From positions 1 to 64,000 of the forward strand of contig JAFGDZ010000068.1 of assembly GCA_016931855.1 (NCBI GenBank): a DNA stretch of 64,000 nt, read 5' to 3'. Positions 60,550 to 64,000 of this stretch are shown here, one piece after another (the stretch's first letter is position 1; every line of letters starts with the position of its first letter). Both the position numbers and the translations under genes were made by a program. Source of the stretch: Bacteroidales bacterium. GTDB lineage: Bacteria; Bacteroidota; Bacteroidia; Bacteroidales; Tenuifilaceae. Under the pieces are notes generated by a model that was not told where the DNA came from, did no database searches, and saw nothing but the letters and a program-made list of their open reading frames with translations.

Positions 60550-60570
60550 TATATTTGCAACGTTGTTGCA
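60550..60570 (+). promoter_or_regulatory. -7 box overlapping a TGCAAC-N3-GTTGCA operator
   Basis: TATATTTG (60550-60557, TAnnTTTG) shares two bases with a perfect inverted repeat TGCAAC-GTT-GTTGCA (60556-60570). An extra half-site GTTGCA is at 60582-60587. The repeat sits over the transcription start region of the Fur-family gene, the position for an autorepressor. Which metal it answers to is not shown by the sequence. Confidence 0.65.
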
Positions 60571-60601
60571 TTTGTGTTACTGTTGCATAAAATACCAAAA
60601 T

Positions 60602-61006
60602 ATGGAAACATCAAATATACTGGAGACGCATAACCTAAGCAAAACTCCTTGCAGGGTAGATATAATTGATACCCTTTTAGCAACAGAGGTTGCGCTAACG
60701 GAACAGCAACTTAAGGAGAACTTAAAGTTTGATTACGACCGAGCCACCATTTTTAGAACCCTTAAAACCTTTAGCGAAAAGGGAATAATACACTGTGTAC
60801 CCGTTGAAGGGAACGAAGTTTACTACGCCATATCAAAGCCTAACTACAAGCAAACGCTGTCGCATGCGCACTTCCATTGCTCTACTTGCGGAGGCGTTTA
60901 CTGCCTTAACTCCATAAGCATAGCAGAACCCCAACTACCCGATGGTTTTGCTGCACAGGGATACGAGCTTACCATTAACGGCTGCTGTAGAAAATGCAAA
61001 GAGTAA
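60602..61006 (+). CDS. Fur family metalloregulator
   Basis: 134 residues. Winged-helix N-terminus (TPCRVDIIDTLLATEVALTEQQLKENLKFDYDRATIFRTLKTFSEKGIIH) and a C-terminal metal domain with HAHFHCSTCGGVYCLN and the final CCRKCKE: two CxxC pairs that bind structural zinc, plus a His cluster. It could be Fur, Zur or PerR; I lean to Zur because of the operon. ATG 60602 is preferred; a frame opening at 60545 lies inside the promoter region. Its 3' end overlaps the receptor gene by 13 bases. Confidence 0.9.
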   Translation: METSNILETHNLSKTPCRVDIIDTLLATEVALTEQQLKENLKFDYDRATIFRTLKTFSEKGIIHCVPVEGNEVYYAISKPNYKQTLSHAHFHCSTCGGVYCLNSISIAEPQLPDGFAAQGYELTINGCCRKCKE

Positions 61007-63384
61007 TAATTGGCATGTTAATGCTAGCTGCATTGGCAGCTAACTCAATGAGCTTAGCCCAGAGTAGCATACAGCTAAATGGTGTGGTTACCAATTCTAA
61101 TGGCAAACCAATTGGTGGCGCACACATATTCCTGCTAGAAACAAAGCAAAGGGCCATAACCAATAGTAAAGGAATATTCTCTATTGACATTAAGCAAAAG
61201 GGCACGTACCAGGTAAACATTAGCTATGTAGGTTACAAATGCATACATGGATGCGCTGTTACCGCCAGTAGCACAAGCCAAACCCATAGCTTTGTAATGG
61301 AGCCCGAGAGCTACGACTTATCGGAAGTAACGGTTGTTGGGCATCGGGCTGGAGAAAGAAGAAAGGAGGTCTCGGCCCCTGTTGAGTACGCAGACAGAGC
61401 CCTAATTAGCAAAAACCTGGGTAGCAGCTTAATGAAAAGTCTGGAAACGCTTCCCGGAATTTCGTCAATGGAAATTGGGCAAGGATTCTCTAAACCTGTA
61501 ATAAGAGGCTTAGGGTTTAATCGGGTTGCGGTGTCGGAGAACGGAGTAAAGATGGAGGGACAACAATGGGGTGCCGACCACGGGCTGGAGATTGATCAGC
61601 TTGGAGTGGAAAACGTTGAGGTGATAAAAGGCCCCGCATCGTTAGAGCATGGCTCCGATGCGGTAAGTGGCGCAATCATTGTAAAACCCATAGCCATTGC
61701 CCCTACAAACACGGTAGAAACATCGGTAACGGCAATAGCCAAATCAGCCAATGAGCTCTTTGGCCTATCGGCAATGGCAAAGGCGCGTACAACAAGCCTG
61801 TTTGCCTACACACGGTTTACCCAAACGCAATTTGGCGATTATAGGGTTCCTGCGGATAGCTTCTTTTTTAACCGCTACAGACTACCTATATATAATGGTA
61901 GATTAAAGAACACTGCTGGAACCGAGAAGAACTTTTACCTAACCACCGGCATAATAAAGGAGTGGGGAAAGATATCAGTATCGGCAAGCAGCGTTAGCTC
62001 TAAAGTTGGCTTTTTTGCCGGTTCTCACGGAATCCCATCGGCAAACAAGCTACTCCCCGATGGCAACACCAGAAATATTGGGCTACCGTACCAAGAGGTA
62101 AACCACTTAAAGCTATCGGTTAACGGTAACTTTTTTAGCCAAATAGGGAAAGTTGCTGTTGATATTGGTTACCAAAACAACCATCGCCAGGAGCACTCGC
62201 TGTTTCACACTCATTACCCAACCCAAGAGCCTCCCAAAACAAGCCCAAACCTAGAGCTACTCTTCAGGCTGCAAACCCTATCGGCTAACATTGCTGTAAC
62301 CCGTAAAATTAGTAGCGCAAGGGTAAGCTATGGGCTAAGCGGGTTATCGCAAACAAATGGCATAGGAGGCTACACGTTTTTGCTCCCCAAGTACGAAAAA
62401 ACAGGACTAGGCGCTTTTGCTGTAGCCACAAAAAGCATCAACAGTAAGGTTAGCCTAAACGCAGGAATTAGGTACGATATTGGCTCAATATCAATAAAAG
62501 AGTACGTATCGCCATACAATGGAACCACACGCGCCCCCAAGTTTACGGGCATGTACCACGACATAAGTTGGGGTGCTGGAATAACCTATGCTCCCACATC
62601 AACTTTTAGCCTAAAAGGGAATATCGGGAAAAGTTTCAGAATGCCTAGTGCCAATGAGCTTAGCGCAAACGGCATTCACCACGGCTCATTTAGGTTCGAG
62701 GTTGGAAGCACAAGCATTACCTCGGAGTATGCTTACCAGGCCGATATTGGGATACAATTCACATCAACCCTATTTGAAATTGGAGCTAGCCCATTTGTAA
62801 GCTACTTCCCCAACTTCATATTCCTAAACCCAACGGGAGGCTACACCCATCCGGATGGATCTGAAATTACCGAGGCCGATGCAGGACAGGTTTACCAATA
62901 CACACAAAGTAAAGCGCTAAGGTACGGCGGAGAGGTAACCGCCAAAGTACAGATGGGCAAGAACCTACACCTGAAAGCAAACGGGGAGATGGTTTTTGCT
63001 ACCGATTTTACCTATCCCCTACCCTTTACACCACCAATCCAATCGCATGTTGAGCTGGAATTCTCAATACCCTACTACTGGAAAAAGCTGCATAGAATTA
63101 CAGTAAGCATTCAGAGCGATATTGTGGCACCACAAAACCGCAATAGCAGAAATGAGCTGGGTACATCGGGCTACGCTTTACTAGATATCCACACAAGCAC
63201 TATCATTATAACAAGACTTGCCCCCATTAGCGTATCCCTACAGATCCAGAACCTGCTAAACAAAAAGTACTGGAACCACATGAATTTTTATCGTAGCATT
63301 GAAATCCCCGAAGTTGGACGAAACATAGTTGTATCGGCATCGATACCCATCTCTAAAAAGTTTGAAAATGAAGCTAAGGAGTAG
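60994..63384 (+). CDS. TonB-dependent outer membrane receptor (ZnuD-like, probably metal uptake)
   Basis: 796 residues. Signal peptide (~1-23), a carboxypeptidase-regulatory-like domain (~28-110, IQLNGVVTNSNGKPIGGAHI), the plug (~125-235, PVIRGLGFNRVAVSENG, DQLGVENVEVIKGPASLEHGSDAVSGAI), then a ~22-strand barrel ending in a short strand. HHGSFRFEVG, FHTHY and HGIPS are His-containing loops. The plug resembles the ZnuD group of zinc receptors. It is in an operon with a Fur regulator (overlap 13 bases) and a His/Cys-rich mini-protein (overlap 17 bases). Confidence 0.9.
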   Translation: MQRVIIGMLMLAALAANSMSLAQSSIQLNGVVTNSNGKPIGGAHIFLLETKQRAITNSKGIFSIDIKQKGTYQVNISYVGYKCIHGCAVTASSTSQTHSFVMEPESYDLSEVTVVGHRAGERRKEVSAPVEYADRALISKNLGSSLMKSLETLPGISSMEIGQGFSKPVIRGLGFNRVAVSENGVKMEGQQWGADHGLEIDQLGVENVEVIKGPASLEHGSDAVSGAIIVKPIAIAPTNTVETSVTAIAKSANELFGLSAMAKARTTSLFAYTRFTQTQFGDYRVPADSFFFNRYRLPIYNGRLKNTAGTEKNFYLTTGIIKEWGKISVSASSVSSKVGFFAGSHGIPSANKLLPDGNTRNIGLPYQEVNHLKLSVNGNFFSQIGKVAVDIGYQNNHRQEHSLFHTHYPTQEPPKTSPNLELLFRLQTLSANIAVTRKISSARVSYGLSGLSQTNGIGGYTFLLPKYEKTGLGAFAVATKSINSKVSLNAGIRYDIGSISIKEYVSPYNGTTRAPKFTGMYHDISWGAGITYAPTSTFSLKGNIGKSFRMPSANELSANGIHHGSFRFEVGSTSITSEYAYQADIGIQFTSTLFEIGASPFVSYFPNFIFLNPTGGYTHPDGSEITEADAGQVYQYTQSKALRYGGEVTAKVQMGKNLHLKANGEMVFATDFTYPLPFTPPIQSHVELEFSIPYYWKKLHRITVSIQSDIVAPQNRNSRNELGTSGYALLDIHTSTIIITRLAPISVSLQIQNLLNKKYWNHMNFYRSIEIPEVGRNIVVSASIPISKKFENEAKE

Positions 63385-63703
63385 AATAAGCACAACCCTA
63401 CAAACGCTTAGCTTTATAGCACTTTTTAGTATGCCTAACATATACACGGGCATACATAAGCTAACGGCACACCATGAGCATTTCCACTGCAACGCAAGAA
63501 ACGAGAAGCATATCCACAAAGAGCATAAGGACTGCCCTATTTGCTCCTACTCGGTTCCTGCAATTGAAGCAACTGTCAACCCGGAAACCATAGCAGCAGC
63601 ACAACCAAAACCTACCATAAACGAGTCTCCCAAAAGTTCTTTTTATAATCGATTCAACTTTCAAAACATCCAGTTAAGAGCCCCACCAACGCGCACATCA
63701 TAA
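63368..63703 (+). CDS. Exported His/Cys-rich mini-protein (DUF2946-like layout)
   Basis: 111 residues. A signal-like N-terminal hydrophobic segment (residues ~10-25), then HKLTAHHEHFHC, EKHIHKEHKDCPIC (seven His and three Cys within ~30 residues) and a disordered tail ending RAPPTRTS. This layout, a His/Cys metal-binding block with a C-terminal R-x-PP, recalls DUF2946 proteins found near metal receptors; that is by pattern only. The start is ATG 63368, since an earlier frame start at 63329 lies inside the receptor gene. It overlaps the receptor by 17 bases and is followed by a lipoprotein gene after 46 bases. Confidence 0.75.
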   Translation: MKLRSRISTTLQTLSFIALFSMPNIYTGIHKLTAHHEHFHCNARNEKHIHKEHKDCPICSYSVPAIEATVNPETIAAAQPKPTINESPKSSFYNRFNFQNIQLRAPPTRTS

Positions 63704-63749
63704 CACAACATTAAACAGAACAAAAAAACTTAGACAAAATACATTTACA

Positions 63750-64000
63750 ATGATAAAGAGATTTGCAATACTAACAGTGGCGCTATTTGCCACAGCCCTA
63801 TTCTCTGCCTGCGAAAAGGATGGAGACACACAAAAGCCAACAATTACCATAATTGAACCAACCAGCGGAACTGCGCTTATTGCTGGAGACGAGATCCATT
63901 TTGAGGCGGATTTTAGCGACAATCAAGAACTAAAATCCTACAAAATAGATATTCATAGCGCAGAAGACGGACACACGCATACAAAGTCTATAGCAGCAGA
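63750..64000 (+). CDS. DUF4625-like lipoprotein (start only, cut by window edge)
   Basis: The first 83 residues are present. Signal peptide with a lipobox ending FSAC (Cys at residue 21), then QKPTITIIEPTSGTALIAGDEIHFEADFSD, a beta-rich Ig-like start as in DUF4625 proteins of Bacteroidota, and an H-x-H element (DGHTHTKS) that could bind metal. It is the fourth gene of the metal operon. The C-terminus is outside the window. Confidence 0.7.
   Translation, partial: MIKRFAILTVALFATALFSACEKDGDTQKPTITIIEPTSGTALIAGDEIHFEADFSDNQELKSYKIDIHSAEDGHTHTKSIAA

Follow-up and report, generated by a model that had tools for sequence, protein, structure and literature searches.

The DNA analysed here (the window) comprises positions 1-64,000 of contig JAFGDZ010000068.1 from assembly GCA_016931855.1, belonging to a Bacteroidales bacterium of the Tenuifilaceae, and ends in a four-gene metal-uptake operon with an unusual small protein inside it. 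Four open reading frames (ORFs) follow one another on the + strand: a Fur-family regulator, probably Zur (60602-61006, 134 residues), a ZnuD-like TonB-dependent receptor (60994-63384, 796 residues), a mini-protein that we predict to be a metal-sensing arrest peptide of the CruR/CutF kind on the basis of alignment, motif counts and spacing (63368-63703, 111 residues), and a DUF4625 lipoprotein with a conserved set of histidines (63750-64211, 153 residues). Only 63750-64000 of the last gene lies in the window, and it was completed from the genome contig. The first-pass annotation of this sequence had described four genes that overlap or nearly touch, and all of its ORFs, coordinates and overlaps were confirmed: the regulator and receptor genes share 13 nucleotides (nt), the receptor and mini-protein genes share 17 nt, and 46 nt separate the mini-protein gene from that of the lipoprotein. 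As the upstream neighbour is divergent and the downstream neighbour convergent, the operon stands isolated from the genes around it.

Receptor, lipoprotein and regulator in a zinc context

The receptor contains the Pfam domains Plug and TonB barrel, preceded by an N-terminal CarbopepD_reg_2 domain. ZnuD (4rdr, 2.8e-14) was its sole sequence match in the PDB at E<=1e-10, while the NCBIfam ZnuD model gave 97 bits, far under its cut-off of 950, so that "ZnuD-like" is an apt label and plain "ZnuD" would claim too much.

In the case of the lipoprotein, DUF4625 (PF15418) was recognised at 61 bits in the part inside the window and at 115 bits in the whole protein, against a gathering score of 27. An HxH element noted earlier is present and forms part of a wider set, since C21 (the lipobox cysteine), H69, H75, H77 and H128 were invariant in 15 homologues; in a second set of 26 homologues, the three histidines of the IHxxxxxHxH stretch were invariant and the fourth histidine nearly so. 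AlphaFold2 modelled a Bacteroides homologue as a beta-sandwich, with a mean predicted local distance difference test score (pLDDT) of 85.6. A search of solved structures by sequence and by fold returned only weak or generic Ig-like PDB matches and no structural evidence for a metal site, and no papers on DUF4625 turned up in the literature covered. From the conserved histidines, it is reasonable to suppose that this lipoprotein binds metal. At many of the homologous loci described below (L050:4068-4880, L049:9956-10768 and similar), a second, longer DUF4625-like lipoprotein of about 270 residues is encoded after the receptor and ahead of the short one.

The regulator matched Pfam FUR at 36.2 bits (cut-off 23.1). 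It scored 22.7 bits with the NCBIfam Zur equivalog PRK11639, for which the cut-off is 167, and reached no Fur-family equivalog model. The genome encodes three Fur-family proteins, and to judge from sequence the other two are a Fur-like protein whose gene adjoins purA and a PerR-like protein whose gene adjoins those for ferritin-like and peroxiredoxin-like proteins. As the Fur-like and PerR-like roles are therefore already taken, the third member is likely to be a Zur.

The promoter region points the same way. The operon promoter carries an operator, TGCAACnnnGTTGCA, found as a single exact copy in the 4.08-Mb genome. The operator palindrome TGCAACgttGTTGCA (60556-60570, given without strand) is a probable Zur box, the sole exact copy in the genome and conserved upstream of Fur loci. 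It overlaps a TAnnTTTG-type -7 element (60550-60557), which follows the general -7 consensus of Bacteroidota promoters, and a further GTTGCA half-site lies 3' of it (60582-60587). Allowing at most one mismatch, the operator precedes 21 of the 24 loci that contain Fur and 15 of the 81 others, where shuffled sequences lead one to expect 0 and 0.1, and it mostly sits at a constant distance from the fur start. It also precedes related fur genes beside COG0523 GTPases (L044, L048) and beside ZnuA-type genes (L051, L219); a subset of COG0523 has been tied to zinc homeostasis (PMC2770081). It is through these fur-znuABC and fur-COG0523 loci of relatives that the operator is common to zinc genes, the window's own genome having the exact site here only, and one genome (G051) bears exact sites at both its fur-znuABC locus and its peptide-receptor operon. 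Reversed control patterns yielded no site in 12 genomes. One-mismatch sites elsewhere in the window's genome were considered as further targets and set aside as mostly intragenic. One that lies in a gap (L209:1501-1515, G000:C78:58704-58718), about 230 nt upstream of a gene for a large outer-membrane-type protein, may be a second target or a chance match.

The first-pass annotation had proposed a compact, self-regulated acquisition system with zinc as the inferred metal. Both proposals hold up, the choice of zinc being strengthened by the operator context, by the argument from the third Fur-family gene and by ZnuD as the receptor's only PDB match. Zinc as the operon's metal is thus well supported by context. 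We infer that zinc is the ligand of both the Fur-family protein and the peptide, although the peptide's own ligand could be another metal.

A spaced cysteine motif and a C-terminal RAPP in the mini-protein

The mini-protein had been described as dense in His and Cys; its 8 His and 3 Cys in 111 residues are clustered, but not extreme in number. It has a hydrophobic, signal-like N-terminus, a His cluster, a CPIC motif at residues 56-59 (63533-63544, + strand) that we regard as a putative nascent-chain metal site, and a C-terminus reading QLRAPPTRTS, in which the predicted RAPP arrest motif (residues 104-107; 63677-63688, + strand) ends four residues before the end of the protein. With 44 residues between CPIC and the Arg of RAPP, it has the arrangement of DUF2946/CruR proteins, in which about 45 residues separate a CXXC from a C-terminal RAPP. 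When nine homologues were aligned, conservation was confined to F20, P23, H35, C56, I58, R104, P106 and P107, with C56 invariant.

This pattern was followed in 110 loci gathered by receptor similarity alone, ignoring the small protein: the window, 29 loci from its order and 80 from named genomes throughout Bacteroidota. Of the small ORFs that carry R[AG]PP close to their end, 70 lie on the strand of the receptor and 1 on the opposite strand, whereas permuted motifs gave 0-1 and 0-2, respectively. K[AG]PP gave 9 on the receptor strand, among them the KGPP peptides of five Pedobacter-type loci (L129, L147, L154, L182, L191), where a small protein of the same kind, upstream of the receptor, ends in NKGPP and so has Lys where the others have Arg. 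C..[CH] and Arg were 43-46 residues apart in 56 of the 59 peptides in which the distance could be measured, and 44 apart in 33 of them. When the peptides were anchored on this Arg, Cys peaked at -48 and -45 and was nearly absent from -43 to -30, and little else was conserved; the second Cys is replaced by His or lost in many members.

These data bear on the suggestion, made in the first-pass annotation, that the mini-protein carries metal across the periplasm or holds it there. On this account it would be a working metal-binding protein of the periplasm, exchanging metal with the receptor and lipoprotein, with RAPP an incidental or structural tail, and its signal-like N-terminus, its His cluster, its CPIC and the position of its gene beside uptake genes are all features that a carrier might have. 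What is conserved, however, is the Cys motif and the C-terminal RAPP at a fixed spacing, just 5' of the lipoprotein gene, and not the sequence between them. A fixed length of unconserved sequence suggests a chain measured against the ribosome tunnel and the membrane, which fits better than a folded carrier would. Moreover, the best-studied relatives act only in cis and have not been seen as stable proteins. R[AG]PP recurs at these C-termini and yet is rare in long proteins at the same loci, where one match in 213,911 residues compares with 0-3 for permuted motifs, counts too few to show depletion. We consider a carrier function quite unlikely. The same features, a Cys motif and RAPP a set distance apart with hardly any sequence kept in between, immediately ahead of a transport gene, are the signature of a cis-acting arrest peptide of the CruR/CutF type.

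A signal-like N-terminus combined with a C-terminal RAPP is also the design of peptides that monitor Sec export, such as SecM, ApdA and ApdP, and the mini-protein might in principle sense export in place of metal. Against this stand the Cys conserved at a fixed distance, the His cluster and downstream genes that are metal-related and not sec or yidC, and we regard such a role as very improbable.

To place the peptide within its operons, near-duplicates were removed to leave a non-redundant set of 90 receptor loci with both flanks. DUF4625 follows the receptor in 86 of these, a small ORF ending in R[AG]PP is found in 49 and an adjacent Fur gene in 23, so that the co-occurrence of the parts across Bacteroidota, which the first-pass annotation had proposed to check, is not due to chance, and both small proteins are conserved beside the receptor. 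The R[AG]PP peptide lies before the receptor only in 35 loci, in the gap between receptor and DUF4625 only in 6, and in both places in 8, leaving 41 with neither. The window's receptor belongs to a four-member clade (support 100), all of whose members have the internal position only, as does a fifth close relative (L092), and this position is retained across 42-49% receptor identity. The complete order Fur-receptor-peptide-DUF4625 was seen in the window alone among the 110 loci. Homologous receptor loci occur in Bacteroides cellulosilyticus and Parabacteroides goldsteinii. In the two-peptide operons (L103, L128, L138, L142, L165, L173, L178, L192), R[AG]PP peptides precede both the receptor and DUF4625, the second often having one Cys only.

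A predicted second control on the lipoprotein gene

Taken together, the locus is best read as a zinc-uptake operon that is repressed by Zur and has a second, cis-acting layer of control, exerted on the lipoprotein gene by a metal-sensing arrest peptide, and we put the probability of this reading at about two in three. Zinc-loaded Zur, bound to the operator over its own promoter, would keep the operon off, and zinc shortage would release Zur and permit transcription. The receptor would then bring zinc in through the outer membrane, while the DUF4625 lipoprotein would bind metal at the membrane by its conserved histidines. During synthesis and export of the peptide, its RAPP end would hold the ribosome for as long as the CPIC/His region of the emerging chain has no metal bound. 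When metal is scarce, the stalled ribosome may, as in the CruR model, shield the mRNA from termination, keeping the lipoprotein gene on; when metal binds the nascent chain, the ribosome would be released and the lipoprotein gene turned down. Both the arrest and this direction of response are predictions from the analysis. Because the peptide gene lies after that of the receptor, the peptide would act on the lipoprotein only. More specifically, and more tentatively, the mini-protein may be a zinc-sensing arrest peptide that, through the position of its gene between the two, frees expression of the lipoprotein from that of the receptor inside a single Zur-controlled operon, as part of a Bacteroidota pattern in which a peptide stands ahead of each controlled gene, sometimes two per operon; we give this a little less than an even chance.

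At the mRNA level, a C-rich, G-poor and unfolded stretch covers the end of the peptide gene and the gap (63599-63748, + strand), where the GC skew of -0.55 is the lowest in the operon. Such mRNA is weakly suggestive of a Rho site, as would be expected of a Rho-type switch, and Rho may on this model be involved. In a model of the stalled ribosome, the window's next start codon became slightly freer (gain 0.105, a value that 3% of shuffles also reached), and across 44 loci 25% reached p<=0.1, a result that is suggestive only. As some other loci have folded gaps, the downstream step may vary.

Several observations weigh against this interpretation. CruR genes come first in their operons, and many homologues here precede the receptor, whereas the window's peptide gene is third of four. 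The peptide cannot be essential to the system, given the 41 of 90 loci that lack an R[AG]PP peptide. The four nearest relatives are without an adjacent Fur gene, and the upstream stretch examined held no close match to the operator. With Pfam PF11162 (DUF2946), the mini-protein scored 16.6 bits, under the gathering score of 23.7, and is thus CruR-like and not a formal family member. A CutF-type hairpin over the lipoprotein start was sought and rejected, since the gap showed no fold beyond shuffles (z 0.74). The bias of C over G is strong in the window, but some of this C-richness is also seen at receptor 3' ends (0.117 vs 0.200), which makes the Rho-site signal weak.

Finally, relatives with proven metal sensing respond to copper. 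This raises the alternative that the peptide is a real arrest peptide with copper or another metal as its ligand, Fur setting the zinc response and the peptide guarding against a second metal. In its favour, all tested metal-sensing relatives are copper-responsive and CXXC is a classic copper motif. All other parts of the operon nevertheless point to zinc, many members have His or nothing in place of the second Cys, and CutF-like proteins with other ligands and non-copper neighbours are already on record (PMC9973294), so we judge a non-zinc ligand unlikely.

Were the zinc-sensing arrest peptide to prove real, a set of candidates linked to a Zur-type operator would widen nascent-chain sensing from copper to zinc, in a phylum that has gut bacteria among its members, and two stacked controls would bear on one nutrient. 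The system also points to a metal-binding role for DUF4625 lipoproteins, and it urges caution over the small His/Cys-rich "metal carriers" that operons encode, since these may instead act as regulators, and only during their own synthesis.

Two other arrangements were seen among the loci. In L229 (1050-1448) and L217 (1569-1964), another Fur-family gene comes first, next to it a different small His-rich protein whose end reads LRAPPAIA or NRGPPALV, and after that a YHS-like small protein and an efflux-type gene (with an RND-like start in L217 and encoding a His-rich protein in L229); from this order, arrest-type leaders may also occur in metal efflux operons. Elsewhere, Fur genes (L056:16820-17125, L057:9702-10007, L058:7148-7585) precede a Cys-rich small exported protein ending in IWQPPKI and, after it, a gene whose product, at about 1446 residues, has the size of an RND efflux pump; WQPPKI could be a further arrest motif.

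Comparison with known arrest peptides and zinc receptors

RAPP-type metal-sensing arrest peptides are already known, and their Bacteroidota members have already been counted. The first-pass view that the operon's small parts have no settled function fits DUF4625, but is too strong for the mini-protein, the function of whose relatives is published. The literature covered (subscription papers, preprints and supplements excluded) gave no case linked to zinc, none with a Fur-family partner in its operon and none in an internal position. In several contexts, RAPP and RGPP cause a robust arrest that resists EF-P. Proteomes strongly avoid both motifs, which are concentrated towards the C-termini of small exported proteins, some of them upstream of genes for TonB receptors and of other metal genes (PMC12992588); in solved structures, RAP in the P-site keeps the bond with the incoming Pro-tRNA from forming (PMC10951233). 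ApdA, ApdP and the S. lividans proteins (PMC10951233, PMC12992588) are, like the mini-protein, small and exported, with RAPP close to the C-terminus. ApdA and ApdP, however, belong to Sec-related genes and their arrest is proven, whereas that of the window's peptide is predicted from the motif.

On the zinc side, ZnuD and the Zur-regulated TonB receptors of Caulobacter (PMC4176598) resemble this system in the Zur-type control of a TonB-dependent zinc receptor. The window differs from them in its CarbopepD_reg_2 domain, its DUF4625 partner, its arrest peptide and an operator unlike the Caulobacter boxes in PMC4176598.

CutF of Rhodobacter capsulatus is likewise an exported sensor, of copper, that acts in cis on the next gene, and CutF-like proteins, 40% of them from Bacteroidota (19% before normalisation), commonly neighbour TonB-type genes (PMC9973294). 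CutF promotes its multicopper oxidase through an mRNA hairpin (PMC9973294), whereas the window has no such hairpin. The closest parallel is CruR-BfrG-Bp2921 of Bordetella pertussis, in which the upstream ORF encodes a nascent chain that senses copper via CXXC, the ribosome stalls at RAPP, and the TonB receptor gene behind it is controlled (PMC9426467). CruR and the mini-protein are alike in being small exported proteins with CXXC and a C-terminal RAPP, encoded beside a TonB receptor gene, with CXXC-RAPP intervals of 45 residues in CruR (PMC9426467) and 44 in the window. The mini-protein differs in its zinc context, its Fur-family partner gene, its His cluster and its score below the DUF2946 cut-off and, unlike CruR, it precedes not the receptor but DUF4625.
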